Program-made: the position numbers and the translations under genes
Assembly (NCBI RefSeq): GCF_004339575.1
Contig: NZ_SMFV01000001.1
Span: 62,001-126,000 of the forward strand
Direction: 5' to 3'
Length of the DNA stretch: 64,000 nucleotides
DNA from: Phorcysia thermohydrogeniphila
GTDB lineage: Bacteria; Aquificota; Aquificia; Desulfurobacteriales; Desulfurobacteriaceae
Notes under the pieces: generated by a model
Told to the model about the DNA's origin: nothing
The model's database searches: none
Seen by the model: the letters and a program-made list of their open reading frames with translations, nothing else
Part shown: positions 7,269 to 48,518 of the stretch, one piece after another
How the letters are laid out: each line of letters begins with the position of its first letter
Numbering within the stretch: the first letter of the stretch is position 1

Positions 7269-7611
7269 CTTGAAATGCCCGAAAAAGTGAGCGGGATTGC
7301 GACTCTTTGGAGCGAATGACAGCAAGAAGCTGGGGCACACTTGAAATGCCCGAAAAAGTGAGCGGGATTGCGACCAACAAGACCTCCGTCAATGCCTTTC
7401 CAGACTGTTTCAATACTTGAAATGCCCGAAAAAGTGAGCGGGATTGCGACTCTTTTGAGAGTAGATTTTGCATCTAAAGATTCCTTCCTTTGTTGAAATG
7501 CCCGAAAAAGTGAGCGGGAGATTGTGACCTGTTCCCTGAATACTCGGATGTGTAGATTCTCCTAATCTTGACATCTTGAGTTGAAATGCCCTGAGAAGTA
7601 GAAGGGACTAA
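7269..7611 (+). CRISPR. CRISPR array 1 (three good repeats, two degenerate, four spacers)
   Basis: Repeats of 35 nt are at 7269-7303, 7340-7374 and 7416-7450. A degenerate one with a 2-nt insertion is at 7492-7528, and a strongly diverged terminal copy at 7580-7611. The repeat opens TTGAAATGCCCG and closes CGGGATTGCGAC, with a short CCCG/CGGG stem. The terminal ATTGCGAC resembles the 8-nt crRNA tag of type I-B and type III systems. Spacers are 7304-7339 (36), 7375-7415 (41), 7451-7491 (41) and 7529-7579 (51). Decay at the far end and the leader at the left give orientation. No cas genes lie in the window. The terminal repeat ends just before the pabC start. Confidence 0.93.
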
Positions 7612-18908: not shown

Positions 18909-21695
18909 TTACCAGTCAAAAATTTGCTCCTTAGAGTAGTTTAGAGCAGACGGATAGTAGCCGGTGTTCCTTAAGTCTCCCCTGAACTTAGACCAGACAA
19001 CCTTTCCGTGAGGCCTTGTGGCTTCAAAGCGGTAGATTTTGCCGTCCCCAGAACCAACAATAATGTCCAAAAGACCATTGCGGTCTACGTCTCCTATTAC
19101 AGGAGAAGAATAAATGGAGCTTCCAGTCTGGAAGCTCCATAGAAGCTGACCGTTTTCTCCGTTTAGAGCATAAACTTTGTTGTCAAAAGACCCTATGACC
19201 ACATCAAGCTTTCCATCTCCATTTATGTCCGCTATCGCTGGGGAAGAATCAACCCAATTTTCTGTTTGGAAGCTCCAGAGAAGCTGACCGTTTTCACCGT
19301 TTATAGCGTAAATTTTTCCGGACTTAGACCCTATGACCACATCAAGCTTTCCATCTCCATTTATGTCCGCTATCGCTGGGGAAGAATCAACCCAATTTTC
19401 TGTTTGGAAGCTCCAGAGAAGCTGACCGTTTTCACCGTTTATAGCGTAAATTTTTCCGGACTTAGACCCTATGACCACATCAAGTTTTCCATCTCCATTT
19501 ATGTCCGCTATCGCTGGGGAAGAAAAAGTCCAATTGTTGTTAATCGGAAAGTTCCAGAGAAGCTGACCGTTTTCTCCGTTTAGAGCAACAATTGAGCTAT
19601 CCCAGCCACATACGGATCTCCCGACGACCACATCAAGTTTTCCATCTCCGTTTATGTCCGCTATCGCCGGGGAAGAATGAACATAACATCCAGCTAAGAA
19701 TTCCCAAAGCAATTGACCGTTTTCACCGTTTATAGCGTAAATTTTTCCGGACTTAGACCCTATGACCACATCAAGTTTTCCATCTCCATTTATGTCTGCT
19801 ATCGCTGGGGAAGAATGAACAATGTCTCCTGTGTAGAAACTCCATAGAAGTTGACCATTTTCGCCGTTTAGAGCATAAACTTTGTAGTCATCAGACCCTA
19901 TGACCACATCAGGTTTCCCATCTCCGTTTATGTCCGCTATTGCCGGAGAAGAATCAACATCGCCTCCAGTCTGGAAGCTCCAGAGAAGCTGGCCGTTTTC
20001 ACCGTTTAAAGCATAGACTTTGTTATCCAGAGACCCTATGACCACATCAGGCTTTCCATCTCCGTTTAAGTCCGCTATCGCCGGGGAAGAATAAACATCG
20101 TCTCCAGTCTGAAAACTCCAGAGAAGCTGACCGTTTTCTCCGTTTAGAGCGTAAACTTTGTTGTCCAAAGACCCTATGACCACATCAAGTTTTCCATCTC
20201 CGTTTAAGTCCGCTATCGCCGGGGAAGAGTCAACCCAACTCCCCGTTTGATACTCCCACACCTTTACAAATAGCTCCGAATTCAAAAAGTCCGGCGATTG
20301 GTTGACTGCGTAGCCGACGGTAAACTGGTCTATCTGTTTTTCAACAGTTTCCGTGCCGTTGCTGTAGTTTTTAAAGACCTTTACAGTTAGAGGAACTACT
20401 CCGCTACCTGCCTCATCGCCTTTTACGGTGTAGGTAACATTAATGTTGCTACACGTTTGAGAGGTGTTTTCAGAGACTAAAGTATCTCCCTTGTACAGCC
20501 TTACTGTGCAAGTTCCTTCAACCGATGTAGAGCCGGTTATGGTAATGCTACCGGCGTCGGTTGTTGCATCCTGCGGGTCTCCGAAAGGACAGCTTCCCCA
20601 GTTTACGGCGTTCCAGATAGCACCGGTTGAAAGGTCTCTGCACTTAACGGTTACTTTTGGAGAGTCGGGGTTAAATGAGTCTCTGTAAATCTTTAATATG
20701 TAAGTGCCTGAATCCCATATATTTCCGCCTTCGTCAAGGGACTCCTTTACGCCAACTGTTACTGTGGTGTTTTCTCCCTGTGAAAGGGTAAAGTTTTTGG
20801 TGATTTGAAGACTGTAGTCTATGTCTTCGTAAGCCAAACCATCATAGGAGTATGCGGGGTTAAAACCTTCTCCATCTTGGTTCTGGAACTTAAAGGTTAA
20901 ACATTGAGAGTCTGGTGGTATGGTAACCGTGTATACGTCTCCAACTTCAGCCAAGTAGGTTTTAGTTGATGATGCTGAGCAAGTTTCTCCTCCGAAGGAA
21001 ATTCTTGGAAGAGCGTTAATTTTTATCGTGAAGGGATTAAAGTAGTCTCCTAAATCAAGAACTTTGTTTTCTCCTTGAGTAATTAAGTTGTAAAGTTTTA
21101 ACGTGATGCCTGTGCTTCTGCCTTCCCAAATTCTTCCACAAGCACCGCAAACGGGAGAGAGAAAATCAAAAATGAGACTGCCTTGTCCATTTGTTAAAGG
21201 AACTACAATCATATCTTCTTCAGAAAAAGCAGAACCGTCTGTAGCGGTGGCGGTTACCTTTTCTGTGTAAGCTCCGTTGTCTGTAGAAAGAACAAACTTT
21301 TCGTTGTTTAGTATGTTGCCGATAGAAACTCCACCGGAGACTTCCATATAAGAGCAAGAATCGGAAGATGCGGAGTTACTGCATATCAAGGCATCTTCGG
21401 TGTAGAAACCGTAGATATATACCTTGTCGTTGTCAACGTCCTCTACATCTATCTTCATTGTTGTTCCAACGTGAGGAATGAGAACCGTTTGCTGGTACTC
21501 GGTTCTTGAGTCGCTCTCCGTAAGTGCGGCGTTGAAAACGGTGATTTTTGCCTTCCCGTTTGCAGAGGTTATCTCTACTTTGGGCACTTCTTCACTGGTT
21601 AGATTTTCGCCTACGTCGCTTGAGGAGTTTGAAATACCGTTACCACACGAGGACAGTATTAAAAGGAGGGGGAGAAGGGAGAGAGCTCTCCTCAT
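18909..21695 (-). CDS. Large lipoprotein with FG-GAP/PQQ-type beta-propeller
   Basis: The signal peptide ends in lipobox ILSSC (Cys17), so the 928-aa protein is probably exported and lipid-anchored. Residues about 30-475 are beta-rich and share landmarks with the adjacent lipoprotein: LYNLITQ..LDLGDYF, VKESLDEGG, a DPQDATTDAGSI segment and VNQSPDF. The rest is nine 46-residue units. Each joins a calcium-loop motif (DINGDGKLDVVIGS, FG-GAP type) to a PQQ-blade motif (YALNGENGQLLWSF), giving a closed propeller. The last unit is degenerate. Such proteins often bind ligands or partners at the cell surface; no enzyme active site is visible. It follows its paralogue with a 4-nt overlap. Confidence 0.85.
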   Translation of the reverse strand: MRRALSLLPLLLILSSCGNGISNSSSDVGENLTSEEVPKVEITSANGKAKITVFNAALTESDSRTEYQQTVLIPHVGTTMKIDVEDVDNDKVYIYGFYTEDALICSNSASSDSCSYMEVSGGVSIGNILNNEKFVLSTDNGAYTEKVTATATDGSAFSEEDMIVVPLTNGQGSLIFDFLSPVCGACGRIWEGRSTGITLKLYNLITQGENKVLDLGDYFNPFTIKINALPRISFGGETCSASSTKTYLAEVGDVYTVTIPPDSQCLTFKFQNQDGEGFNPAYSYDGLAYEDIDYSLQITKNFTLSQGENTTVTVGVKESLDEGGNIWDSGTYILKIYRDSFNPDSPKVTVKCRDLSTGAIWNAVNWGSCPFGDPQDATTDAGSITITGSTSVEGTCTVRLYKGDTLVSENTSQTCSNINVTYTVKGDEAGSGVVPLTVKVFKNYSNGTETVEKQIDQFTVGYAVNQSPDFLNSELFVKVWEYQTGSWVDSSPAIADLNGDGKLDVVIGSLDNKVYALNGENGQLLWSFQTGDDVYSSPAIADLNGDGKPDVVIGSLDNKVYALNGENGQLLWSFQTGGDVDSSPAIADINGDGKPDVVIGSDDYKVYALNGENGQLLWSFYTGDIVHSSPAIADINGDGKLDVVIGSKSGKIYAINGENGQLLWEFLAGCYVHSSPAIADINGDGKLDVVVGRSVCGWDSSIVALNGENGQLLWNFPINNNWTFSSPAIADINGDGKLDVVIGSKSGKIYAINGENGQLLWSFQTENWVDSSPAIADINGDGKLDVVIGSKSGKIYAINGENGQLLWSFQTENWVDSSPAIADINGDGKLDVVIGSFDNKVYALNGENGQLLWSFQTGSSIYSSPVIGDVDRNGLLDIIVGSGDGKIYRFEATRPHGKVVWSKFRGDLRNTGYYPSALNYSKEQIFDW
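19020..20245 (-). repeat. Nine tandem 138-bp coding repeats (propeller blades)
   Basis: The unit length is 138 bp (46 codons). The conserved core reads ATAAACGGTGAAAACGGTC-like on the coding strand. Units at 19268-19405 and 19406-19543 differ at about one position by eye, so this pair is a very recent duplication. One unit (about 19560-19690) has an insertion encoding RSVCGWDSSI in place of the usual loop. Slippage or recombination here could change the blade number. Confidence 0.9.
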
Positions 21696-45511: not shown

Positions 45512-45581
45512 AATCTTTATCCTCTTAGCTTCATAAAAGCTCTTATATTCTAACATGCAAAGACTACGGTTTGGAGGAAGG

Positions 45582-46550
45582 ATGCTTGAGGAGAAAATCA
45601 GGGGAGCTGTTCTTGGCGCTGCGATAGGGGATGCCCTCGGGACTCTCGTTGAGGAGATGGACAGGGAAACTGTGAAGAAGGCCTACGGTGGGGCAATAGT
45701 TGGTTTTACAGAACCTTCACCTCTGTCTGTCTGTCCTCACCTTAAGAAGGGACAGTACTCACACGAAACACAGATGTTCTTACTCGTTCTTGAGATTTAC
45801 GCAGAGAAGGGTAGGTTTGACGAGGAGCTCTACGTAGAGAGGCTGATTGAGTGGGTAAAGGACGAAAAGTCCCACAGGTATCCTGCAGGTTCTCACATAA
45901 ACGCAGCCCTTTCTTACGCTGCCGGCGTTGACCCGTCAGAGGCAAGGGTGAAAAGTGCCGACATTGACGGGGCAGTTCCAGCGCTTGCTGCCGGAATCTT
46001 TCGCTGGGACAGCAGTTACGATGCTTACGAGGAGGGAGCTCTCATCGCTTCCGTTACCCATAACGACGAGGCACTCATAGATACTGCCGGCGTTCTTGCA
46101 GTTGCCGTTTCTGAGGTCATAGGAGGAAGAGTTTTACTTTCAACAACCGACGATAGACTCGGCTTTGTTGAGATACTCAGGGAGTTTGCAAGGACTGAAA
46201 TGGTAAGGGCTTACCTTGACATGGTTTCTCAGGTTCTAATAAAGAACGTTGATTCCTTAGACGACGTTATACTGATGCTTGGAAACGGAAGCTTTGCCCC
46301 TGAAGCCTTTGCGATTTCTCTTTACTTGGCAGTTACTAACGTTTCAAGCTTTAGAAATGCCGTTTTAAAGGCCGTTAACTCCTACGGGGACTTTGGAGGG
46401 GATACAGACGCCATTGCCTTTATAACCGGTGGGCTTGTTGGGGGATATTTAGGAGCTTCTGCGATTCCTTCCGACTGGATTGAGTGTTTGGAGAGTGCGA
46501 ACTACTTTGACCTTGTTGTTAAGAAACTGATTGATAAGATGAAAGTTTAA
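45582..46550 (+). CDS. ADP-ribosylglycohydrolase-family protein
   Basis: The DraG-like fold has the GAVLGAAIGDALGT start with its metal Asp, a YSHETQMFLLVLEIY segment where the family usually has TDDT, and SVTHNDEALIDTA. The C-terminal signature is GGDTDAIAFITGGLVGGYLGA. Such enzymes remove ADP-ribose from proteins (dinitrogenase reductase is the classic case) or cleave related compounds. No DraT or nitrogenase gene is here. The ATG at 45582 follows GGAGGAAGG. The stop codon abuts the repeat element of CRISPR array 2. Confidence 0.82.
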   Translation: MLEEKIRGAVLGAAIGDALGTLVEEMDRETVKKAYGGAIVGFTEPSPLSVCPHLKKGQYSHETQMFLLVLEIYAEKGRFDEELYVERLIEWVKDEKSHRYPAGSHINAALSYAAGVDPSEARVKSADIDGAVPALAAGIFRWDSSYDAYEEGALIASVTHNDEALIDTAGVLAVAVSEVIGGRVLLSTTDDRLGFVEILREFARTEMVRAYLDMVSQVLIKNVDSLDDVILMLGNGSFAPEAFAISLYLAVTNVSSFRNAVLKAVNSYGDFGGDTDAIAFITGGLVGGYLGASAIPSDWIECLESANYFDLVVKKLIDKMKV

Positions 46551-46645
46551 GTGAGGGGGATGAAATCCCCCCTCAGACTCCCCCCTTTGAAGATGAAAGC
46601 TTCTCTTCTACCCCTTCCTTTAAACTCCTCCCCATAGAAACAGAA
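46551..46645. repeat. Repeat element copy 1, beside CRISPR array 2
   Basis: A 95-bp unit begins GTGAGGGGGATG, has a GC-rich hairpin (GAGGGGGAT paired with ATCCCCCCTC), CAGACTCCCCCCTTTGA, a pyrimidine-rich run, and ends GAAACAGAA. It is about 85% identical by eye to 46900-46998. Its right end joins a truncated CRISPR repeat at the same base as copy 2. Its left end abuts the stop codon of the glycohydrolase gene with no repeat fragment, which suggests a later deletion. It carries no gene. Confidence 0.75.
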
Positions 46646-47025
46646 CCTGTCCACTTTTTCGGGCATTTCAACCAGCGGTGAGGATATGATGGCTGAATGT
46701 AAGTCGTGCGTTGCAATCCCGTTCACTTTTTCGGGCGTTTCAACAAAGTTTTCCCGTGTTATCAAACAGGTAGTCAAGCAAAAACCGTTGCAATCCCGCT
46801 CACTTTTTCGGGCATTTCAACACTCAAAAAATCCAAACCCAGAGGTAATAGCGAGTAGAGAATTGTCGCAATCCCGTCCACTTTTTCGGGCAGGCAATTG
46901 TGAGGGGGGATGATAATCCCCCCTCAGACTCCCCCCTTTGAAAATATGAAACCTGTCTTTTTTCCCCTTCCTTTAAACTCCTCCCCAGAGAAACAGAACC
47001 CGTCCACTTTTTCGGGCATTTCAAC
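46646..47025 (-). CRISPR. CRISPR array 2, interrupted by a repeat element
   Basis: Read on the minus strand from the leader at the right: a truncated repeat (47025-46999), inserted DNA (46998-46892), and the rest of that repeat (46891-46865). Then come spacers and repeats at 46821-46787 and 46744-46710, and a truncated repeat at 46672-46646. Spacers are 46822-46864 (43), 46745-46786 (42) and 46673-46709 (37). Repeats match array 1 (start GTTGAAATGCCCG, end CGGGATTGCAAC or GCGAC) with single-base variants. The leader matches array 1 too. No cas genes are near. Confidence 0.92.
46892..46998. mobile_element. Repeat element copy 2 inserted in a CRISPR repeat
   Basis: This 107-bp insertion splits the leader-proximal CRISPR repeat. 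The 19 bases on its left (46873-46891, CCCGTCCACTTTTTCGGGC) recur exactly on its right (46999-47017), as a target duplication would. Both flanks share the variant GTCCAC, not found in the two intact repeats of this array. The core from 46900 matches copy 1. A perfect 10-bp stem, GAGGGGGGAT / ATCCCCCCTC with loop GATA, stands near its left end. It encodes no protein, so it resembles a MITE- or REP-like non-autonomous element. Confidence 0.65.
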
Positions 47026-47186
47026 AGCAAAAATCTGAAAGTATTGGAAATCAATATCTCCAGAACTTAAGATTTCCATCAAATTCTGTAACTCATTGAA
47101 AATTAGCTTTTCCGAGCAAAAAGTTTCAGTATGCTGAACTATGCCCCGTGCCCTATTCAACTTTCAAAGATCCTACTCTAATTCTA
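47026..47186 (-). promoter_or_regulatory. CRISPR leader of array 2
   Basis: On the minus strand this region matches the array 1 leader: TAGAAT box (47186-47181), 11 nt, then TCTTTGAAAG, the TTCAG-N4-CTGAA inverted repeat (47125-47138), CAATGAGTTA, and a T-rich end at the repeat. The four bases in the palindrome loop differ between leaders while the arms are identical, which suggests selection on the arms. It gives leftward transcription through the array. Confidence 0.85.
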
Positions 47187-47318: not shown

Positions 47319-48518
47319 ATGAAAAAGTTCTTAACAGCCACTTTAGCTCTTTCTCTCCTTTTCGGATGCTCTGAAGAGAGCTCTAAAACCTGTACTCCTG
47401 ATACTCCTTTAGCAAAAGTAGGTGATAGAGTTATAACGGTTAGCTACTACGAAAAGGTTGAAAATGCCCTTCCGGCCGGTTCTGTTAAGAGGTTTCACTC
47501 CGGAAAAAAACTCCTTGATGAGATAGTTGAGAGACACCTCATTCTCTTAGATTCCCTTGAGAAGGGAATTTTTGAAAATCCAGAAATAAAAGAGAAAGTA
47601 GAGCGTTACAGGATAAAGAGACTTGCCTATAGGTTTCTTAACTCTAAGGTTGGGGACTATTCCGTTTCTGACAGAGAAGTGGAGGAGTTCATAAAGAAAC
47701 GTTACGCCGGAAAAGAGGTAACTCCAGAGCTTAAGAGGAAAGTTAAGGTAAATCTTGAAGCTAAAAAGTTCGTACAGAAACGCCAAGAGATCTTAAACAG
47801 AATCAGCTCTGAGGTTCGTTTTGTGGATGACAGGCCGACTTCTCCGGAGGACGTTATTGCAGTCTATAAAGGAGAAAAGATTCGTTTTAGTGACGTGAAA
47901 TCCCTCTTGGGCAAAAAACCTTCTCCTGAGAAATTGAAAAAGGCAGTTTTGGAGTACGTTCTTTATAAGAGAGCTCTTAAAGAAGGCCTTGATAAGAACG
48001 GAGATTTCCTTTCCTCCTATAATAGATTCCTTGCAAGTTTAGCCGTTAAGGAGTTTAAGAAAAGGGTTCTTTCTTCAGTAAAAGTTACGGATGAGGAGAT
48101 AAAGAACTACTACGAGAAGCATAAAGGTCTTTTCAAGAGACCTCCGGAGGCTGAGGTTGTAATCTACGAGTTTAGAAGTAAAGAAGATGCGGAGAGAGCT
48201 CTCTCTAAAGGCTCTTTAAAAGGCGGGAGAGTGTGGAAGGTAACTGCTGCCGACGCAGATTGTAATCCAGTTTCTACCCTTGTCTTTAAGGAGAAAAAGG
48301 ATAGGGGGATAATTCCTCTTCCTGACGGGAGAGCTCTCCTTGTGGTTGTAAAGAGGAGGCTGCCGGCAAGGGAGCTCCTTTACGGCGATGCCTATCAGCT
48401 CATAAAGGAGAAGCTAACCTTAGAGAAGGCAGAAAGGCTCTACAAGCAGGAGATAGAAAAGCTTAAAGAGAAGTTTGGCGTTAAGTACTACAAGGAAAAT
48501 TTAGTCTGCATTTCTTAA
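47319..48518 (+). CDS. SurA/PpiC-like periplasmic chaperone lipoprotein
   Basis: A signal peptide with lipobox SLLFGC is followed by a SurA N-terminal-like region: LAKVGDRVITVSYYEKVENAL, then a long helical section with EIVERHLILLDSLEKGI. A second helical part and a C-terminal parvulin-like remnant (EVVIYEFRSKEDAERAL, GIIPLPDGRALLVVVKRR) follow. The prolyl isomerase core looks degenerate, so a chaperone role is more likely than catalysis. The Shine-Dalgarno AGGGAG lies within a GGGAGCTCCC palindrome (47307-47316). It ends with a 4-nt convergent overlap with the M16 protease gene. The 130 bases upstream, to the CRISPR leader, are AT-rich and hold no gene. Confidence 0.75.
   Translation: MKKFLTATLALSLLFGCSEESSKTCTPDTPLAKVGDRVITVSYYEKVENALPAGSVKRFHSGKKLLDEIVERHLILLDSLEKGIFENPEIKEKVERYRIKRLAYRFLNSKVGDYSVSDREVEEFIKKRYAGKEVTPELKRKVKVNLEAKKFVQKRQEILNRISSEVRFVDDRPTSPEDVIAVYKGEKIRFSDVKSLLGKKPSPEKLKKAVLEYVLYKRALKEGLDKNGDFLSSYNRFLASLAVKEFKKRVLSSVKVTDEEIKNYYEKHKGLFKRPPEAEVVIYEFRSKEDAERALSKGSLKGGRVWKVTAADADCNPVSTLVFKEKKDRGIIPLPDGRALLVVVKRRLPARELLYGDAYQLIKEKLTLEKAERLYKQEIEKLKEKFGVKYYKENLVCIS

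Follow-up and report, generated by a model that had tools for sequence, protein, structure and literature searches.

Array 2 is one of the CRISPR arrays in the window, the stretch of 64,000 nucleotides of the Phorcysia thermohydrogeniphila genome that we analysed, and it lies between an ADP-ribosylglycohydrolase-like gene and a peptidylprolyl-isomerase-like gene (Table 1). It is encoded on the minus strand, with its leader on the right-hand side in window coordinates, and its repeat, read on the crRNA strand, is GTTGAAAYGCCCGAAAAAGTGARCGGGATTGCRAC (35 nt). The stretch 46999–47170 matches the leaders of six further arrays of this genome at 81–90% identity. By eye, a boxA-like stretch, CTTTGAAAGTTGAATAG, can be seen in this leader (47138–47170, minus strand), and similar stretches precede other arrays. 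Elsewhere in the window, 138-bp direct repeats lie in register at 19053–20333, within a 928-aa open reading frame (18909–21695, minus strand).

The leader-proximal repeat of array 2 is interrupted by 107 bp, here called copy B, and the 19-mer CCCGTCCACTTTTTCGGGC stands on either side of the interruption. On each side, the 19-mer is extended outwards by the corresponding part of the 35-nt repeat and, on the crRNA strand, the order is repeat positions 1–27, the element and positions 9–35; positions 9–27 (GCCCGAAAAAGTGGACGGG), which make up the stem-loop of the repeat, are present twice. Our re-reading of the positions bears out the sequence-only reading, which had described a 107-bp split between two copies of the 19-mer with these coordinates and lengths. 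That reading had also pointed to a variant, GTCCAC, in both flanks but not in the intact repeats, and these indeed read GTTCAC (46710–46744) and GCTCAC (46787–46821). Its use of the variant as a sign of target duplication stands only in part: GTCCAC is found in the flanks, but it also occurs in the terminal repeat (46646–46672) and in the repeats of another array, and it is not private to one target.

A second element, copy A, closes the leader-distal end of the array and on its outer side abuts the stop codon (TAA) of the convergent gene. As had been noted, its junction with the repeat falls on the same base as that of copy B. Both copies lie behind a GTGGAC repeat (crRNA strand), are 95% identical over their aligned columns, and match the covariance model of the hairpin with E = 1.4e-12 (copy B) and 5.5e-8 (copy A).

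Table 1. Features of array 2, its surroundings and array 1 (window coordinates)
Feature	Position	Strand	Remarks
ADP-ribosylglycohydrolase-like gene flanking array 2	45555..46550	+	
Element copy A, leader-distal end of array 2	46551..46645	-	95 bp
Terminal repeat of array 2	46646..46672	-	repeat positions 1–27 only
Intact CRISPR repeat, array 2	46710..46744	-	
Intact CRISPR repeat, array 2	46787..46821	-	
Trailer-side part of split repeat	46865..46891	-	positions 9–35; handle ATTGCGAC intact
Trailer-side 19-bp copy	46873..46891	-	repeat positions 9–27 (stem-loop)
Element copy B, long form, splitting the leader-proximal repeat	46892..46998	-	107 bp; G-rich strand is the crRNA strand
Triplex-type hairpin core of copy B, GGGGGGAGTCTGAGGGGGGATTATCATCCCCCCTCAC	46900..46936	-	covariance model E = 1.4e-12; 11-bp stem
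Leader-side 19-bp copy	46999..47017	-	
Leader-side part of split repeat	46999..47025	-	positions 1–27; handle ATTGCRAC missing
Leader of array 2	47026..47170	-	homologous to the leaders of six further arrays of this genome
Peptidylprolyl-isomerase-like gene, leader-side neighbour of array 2	47319..48518	+	
Array 1 of the window	7269..7610	+	same repeat family; no element at its end

Judged by its sequence, the element is a small, non-coding, G-rich stem-loop of the predicted purine intrastrand-triplex (PIT/TM) kind. Its core has the form GGGGGGAG-TYT-GAGGGGGG-loop-CCCCCCTC, that is, a hairpin with, on its 5' side, a purine stretch mirroring the purine arm, and in copies A and B it reads GGGGGGAG-TCT-GAGGGGGG-loop-CCCCCCTC, a perfect 19-nt mirror. 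Among the 16 CRISPR copies that we found, all keep the hairpin stem of 8–11 bp; the third strand is less strictly kept, being shorter or mutated in about half of them.

What might the insertion do to the CRISPR system? The type III-A genes cas10, csm2, csm4, csm5 and cas6 are present and open, as is a CARF gene, and the only cas1 match in the genome, located between two arrays, is a fragment of ~104 aa (G000:C1:9150-9460, L198; G, C and L numbers are our handles for genomes, contigs and loci, and G000 is this genome). Interference has probably been kept and adaptation probably lost. The suggestion that the insertion blocks spacer acquisition is therefore weak, since with cas1 surviving only as a fragment copy B probably blocks nothing. 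Equally weak is the companion suggestion that it silences downstream crRNAs: the 8-nt handles are intact in the repeats downstream of internal copies, both of copy B and of the copy at C2:161580, so a loss of downstream crRNAs is not evident. The element itself would not be expected to yield a normal crRNA, because the repeat that precedes it lacks its 8-nt handle, and the spacers beyond it, with handles intact, may still be usable.

Copies in CRISPR arrays and before tRNA-Leu genes

We searched for further copies across the 1.62-Mb genome, both by DNA search and with a covariance model of the hairpin. There were 14 strong matches to the model, 12 of them within CRISPR arrays, although the arrays make up only ~4.5 kb (0.28%) of the genome (binomial P about 2e-29), and all 12 have the same orientation, with the G-rich strand as the crRNA strand. 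The remaining two lie just upstream of tRNA-Leu genes. This search, which the sequence-only reading had proposed, thus yielded further copies that are mostly CRISPR-linked and have recurring duplicated flanks, in keeping with its view of a hairpin element with a strong preference for CRISPR repeats. Chance and misassembly can be ruled out, since the identical repeat–element–repeat layout recurs at other loci and in other genera and copies A and B match the hairpin model with the E-values given above. An Rfam search of the element gave no family above threshold. The element pattern is also rare in viruses (6 matches in 2.9 million viral contigs), on which basis a viral origin was rejected.

The leader-distal end of nearly every array in the genome carries the element, array 1 of the window being an exception. 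Internal copies are found next to the leader at C1:410097, as for copy B, after ten of sixteen repeats at C2:161580, and, as two tandem copies, at C1:201968-202093. Three other genomes of the family, which overall similarity suggests to be the Desulfurobacteriaceae, carry four CRISPR-linked copies (two arrays of G005, one each in G018 and G006), and a weaker copy lies at a contig end beside a repeat in G001, a genome of the same genus. Many arrays of the family lack the element, and arrays of relatives end without it. By eye, the element-bearing array of G006 (L095, G006:C15:20200-22600) directly adjoins a tmRNA-like sequence.

Could the element be a functional end of the array? Its constant orientation at the ends of nearly all arrays of the genome, the conserved stem, and the fact that three elements abut or nearly abut the stop codon of a convergent gene are what would be expected if a hairpin and T-rich stretch after the last repeat stem terminated or insulated transcription and were maintained by selection, with the internal copies as leftovers of joined arrays. 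However, no T run follows the hairpin, a terminator scan of the region found no intrinsic terminator, the arrays of relatives do without the element, and the handles downstream of internal copies are intact. Furthermore, in a passage of PMC4666352 that cites earlier work, related triplex motifs are stated to have neither terminator nor promoter activity in E. coli. The missing T run and this inactivity make a selected terminator or insulator less likely, and we regard it as improbable.

Outside the arrays, the wider genome search found the hairpin in tRNA-Leu leaders only. The two examples in this genome (G000:C3:91485-91520, L155, and G000:C3:70865-70900, L158) lie 7 nt before the tRNA in the sense orientation of the transcript, and hairpins of the same type stand between a promoter-like TATATTATA and the tRNA-Leu genes, also in G001 (L135) and G021 (L136). 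Related leader hairpins are found in G001, G021, G015 and G011, and the corresponding leader is short and without a hairpin in G018, G008, G006, G005, G004 and G002. This patchy presence implies that such a hairpin was gained (or repeatedly lost) there too, and it suggests mobility independent of the arrays. The tRNA-Leu copies lack the T-rich end and the right end of the CRISPR form, so a common origin of the two forms is not established, and they have no flanking duplication. Matches in the family to the pattern GGGGAGTYTGAGGGGG outside the arrays and tRNA-Leu leaders were discarded, as they form no hairpin and are mostly coding-like.

Junctions and possible routes of origin and spread

The leader-side repeat of all CRISPR copies breaks off at, or no more than about three bases from, ...GGG, which is the expected Cas6 cut site leaving an 8-nt handle in type I and III systems. 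In most copies a T-rich stretch follows this break. Where a trailer-side half repeat survives, the CTCAC of the element is followed by 8 nt and then by the core GCCC, the repeat core being partly deleted in the G018 copy. Where both flanks survive, the order is repeat positions 1–27, the element and then positions 9–35 (or 5–35). The flanking 19-bp copies described at array 2 thus recur at other arrays; the duplicated flank is 19 bp at most copies and about 23–25 at C2:161580, C1:10870 and in G006. The flanks are not always identical, differing at about 4 of 19 positions at C1:10870, and the ends of the element vary in length and sequence. The 8-nt junctions fall into two classes, NNTTGYYT and NNNCAAAT, each present in more than one genus, which indicates that the insertion events are old.

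Repeat sequence has been lost symmetrically on the sides facing the element, and the far ends of the repeats are largely preserved. Such symmetry would not arise from random decay, and it indicates that the element once entered one repeat and duplicated its stem-loop. One may ask instead whether the short form is an ancient and conserved spacer-like unit, located at the end of the array and bordered by repeats with decayed ends, as its core-to-core distance (about 58–64 nt) equals that of ordinary repeat units (48–71 nt). On the other hand, 8 nt are gone from both element-facing sides while the outer ends of the same repeats are intact, long forms of 102–107 nt exist (the G006 distance is about 77), the element is leader-adjacent in two arrays, and its pattern is rare in viral contigs (6 matches). 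In all copies with both flanks, moreover, the repeat ends facing the element are replaced, so that it does not sit between two complete repeats as a CRISPR spacer does. We consider a spacer-like origin very unlikely.

The account to which we give roughly an even chance is an old insertion that duplicated the repeat stem-loop, followed by spread mainly with the arrays. In an ancestor within the family, one or a few copies would have entered a CRISPR repeat at its stem-loop, so that positions 1–27, the element and positions 9–35 followed one another, with the 19-nt stem-loop on both sides. The likeliest route would be that a replication fork stalled at the G-rich hairpin and switched template, which we propose because both junctions lie at the base of the repeat stem-loop and terminal inverted repeats are absent. 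The repeat–element–repeat block would later have spread mainly along with the arrays: arrays consisting of leader, repeats and terminal element would have been copied to new loci, making the element the usual array end, and recombination through the repeat cores would have placed copies inside arrays, including copy B beside the leader of array 2.

Several observations bear on spread with the arrays. In at least 10 relatives, the interval between the two flanking genes lacks array 2, leader and terminal element included, and is mostly short; array 2 is itself an insertion between the ADP-ribosylglycohydrolase and isomerase genes, and its absence as a whole indicates that leader, array and element moved together. 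In G005, two arrays have a common terminal block though their working repeats differ, and the array at C1:355176, of subtype GCCCG, ends in a GCCCTG repeat, both of which suggest that terminal blocks are inherited as units. The 95% identity of copies A and B, the CRISPR linkage of 12 of the 14 matches and the lack of a Y1/REP-type transposase in the genome (PF01797 search, Y1 family only) also count in favour. On the other hand, no empty site for copy B was found among the genomes compared, and a homology of 19 bp is short for RecA-type recombination. The flanks usually match the local repeat subtype, on both sides at C1:410097, C2:161580 and C1:202051, which a fresh insertion would predict likewise.

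The main rival to template switching and array-borne spread is an active, non-autonomous element that recognises the stem-loop of the CRISPR repeat and inserts each time with enzymes acting in trans, making a target duplication of 19 bp (up to about 25 bp), of which copy B would be one example. It would account for the same junction at independent arrays and genera, for the many copies with both flanks of the local subtype, for the tandem copies, and for the scattered tRNA-Leu hairpins. However, the element has no terminal inverted repeats, its ends vary, and no Y1 transposase was found in the search of that family; the tRNA copies lack a duplication as well as the T-rich and right ends; the C1:10870 flanks differ from each other; and 113 similar hairpins in other phyla, among the matches listed, show no excess of flanking direct repeats. 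We hold active insertion to be possible but rather unlikely. The claim that copy B is a real insertion with target duplication stands as far as its flanking 19-bp copies go, but a fresh event is not established, because flanks differ in several copies, GTCCAC is also found next to copy A, and copy B closely matches copy A; duplication or recombination within and between arrays accounts for copy B at least as well.

A more speculative proposal, in which we have little confidence, is that a transposase-less G-rich hairpin inserts by stem-loop recognition, with structured transcribed DNA as its guide, for instance via R-loops or displaced-strand hairpins. Its targets would be the base of the CRISPR repeat stem-loop and the site 7 nt upstream of the tRNA-Leu acceptor stem, in sense orientation, with CRISPR arrays as its main home.

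The hairpin has become integral to these arrays. With copies at one defined point of a well-understood sequence, junctions that can be read to the base, and element-free relatives, the spread of such a hairpin becomes directly testable. The results also suggest that CRISPR arrays behave like mobile cassettes that share a recurrent end piece, and they offer a natural case for asking whether an array-borne element alters crRNA production.

Relation to known elements

The element ends, TTCTGTTTCT... and ...CTCACAATTGCCT, are not inverted repeats, so it is not a MITE in that sense. REP/REPIN elements with RAYT transposases resemble it as short, palindromic, non-coding repeats, but no GTAG-type tag was seen at the hairpin here, and a REP/RAYT element was rejected for want of a RAYT (Y1) transposase in the PF01797 search of the genome. 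The MITE inside a CRISPR spacer of Haloquadratum walsbyi HBSQ001 (PMC3119063) is likewise a small non-coding element that interrupts an array, in a CRISPR system that is decaying; it differs in being a single insertion, in a spacer and not targeted to the repeat, and its class has inverted terminal repeats, unlike the element here.

Similar hairpins occur in other bacteria. When species genomes were scanned, at least 120 stretches from many phyla carried the same core (GGGGAGTTTGAGGGGG...CCCCCTCA), and the hosts among the matches listed include Roseomonas, Rhodobacteraceae, Bacteroidales, Desulfovibrio, Rokubacteria and others. Triplex-type hairpins are widespread in bacteria, and to our knowledge neither their way of multiplying nor their function has been explained. 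The GGGGAGTTTGAGGGGG hairpins share the core and the mirror-plus-hairpin layout with the element here, but none of those examined among the matches listed lies in a CRISPR array. Four loci among these matches (L240, L288, L316 and L296) were flagged for nearby short repeats, and L240, L288 and L316 proved to be tandem hairpin repeats or ordinary intergenic DNA. Tandem arrays of a hairpin of the same kind are seen at L240 (a Nitrospirae contig) and L288 (an Elusimicrobia contig).

In motif kind, the element belongs with the class II purine intrastrand triplex motifs (PIT/TM) described by Holder et al. 2015 (PMC4666352): by sequence, a purine third strand mirrors the purine arm of the hairpin, with a short loop between. 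Shared with that class are the G/C-richness, the purine third strand, the 3-nt loop, the hairpin and the mirror symmetry (GGGGGGAG-TCT-GAGGGGGG), as well as intergenic location, many copies and a patchy distribution between close relatives. It is not TM_ECO itself, whose consensus is CCCTCNCCCN3-6GGGNGAGGGN3GGGNGAGGG (PMC4666352), as the order of the arms is reversed, with the third strand 5' and not 3' of the hairpin, and the sequence is different. It also differs in being almost confined to CRISPR repeats; the paper gives no CRISPR link, and in the literature that we searched triplex motifs were not described within CRISPR repeats. The CRISPR-lodged hairpin is thus real, orderly and not ordinary, yet built from a known class of repeat.
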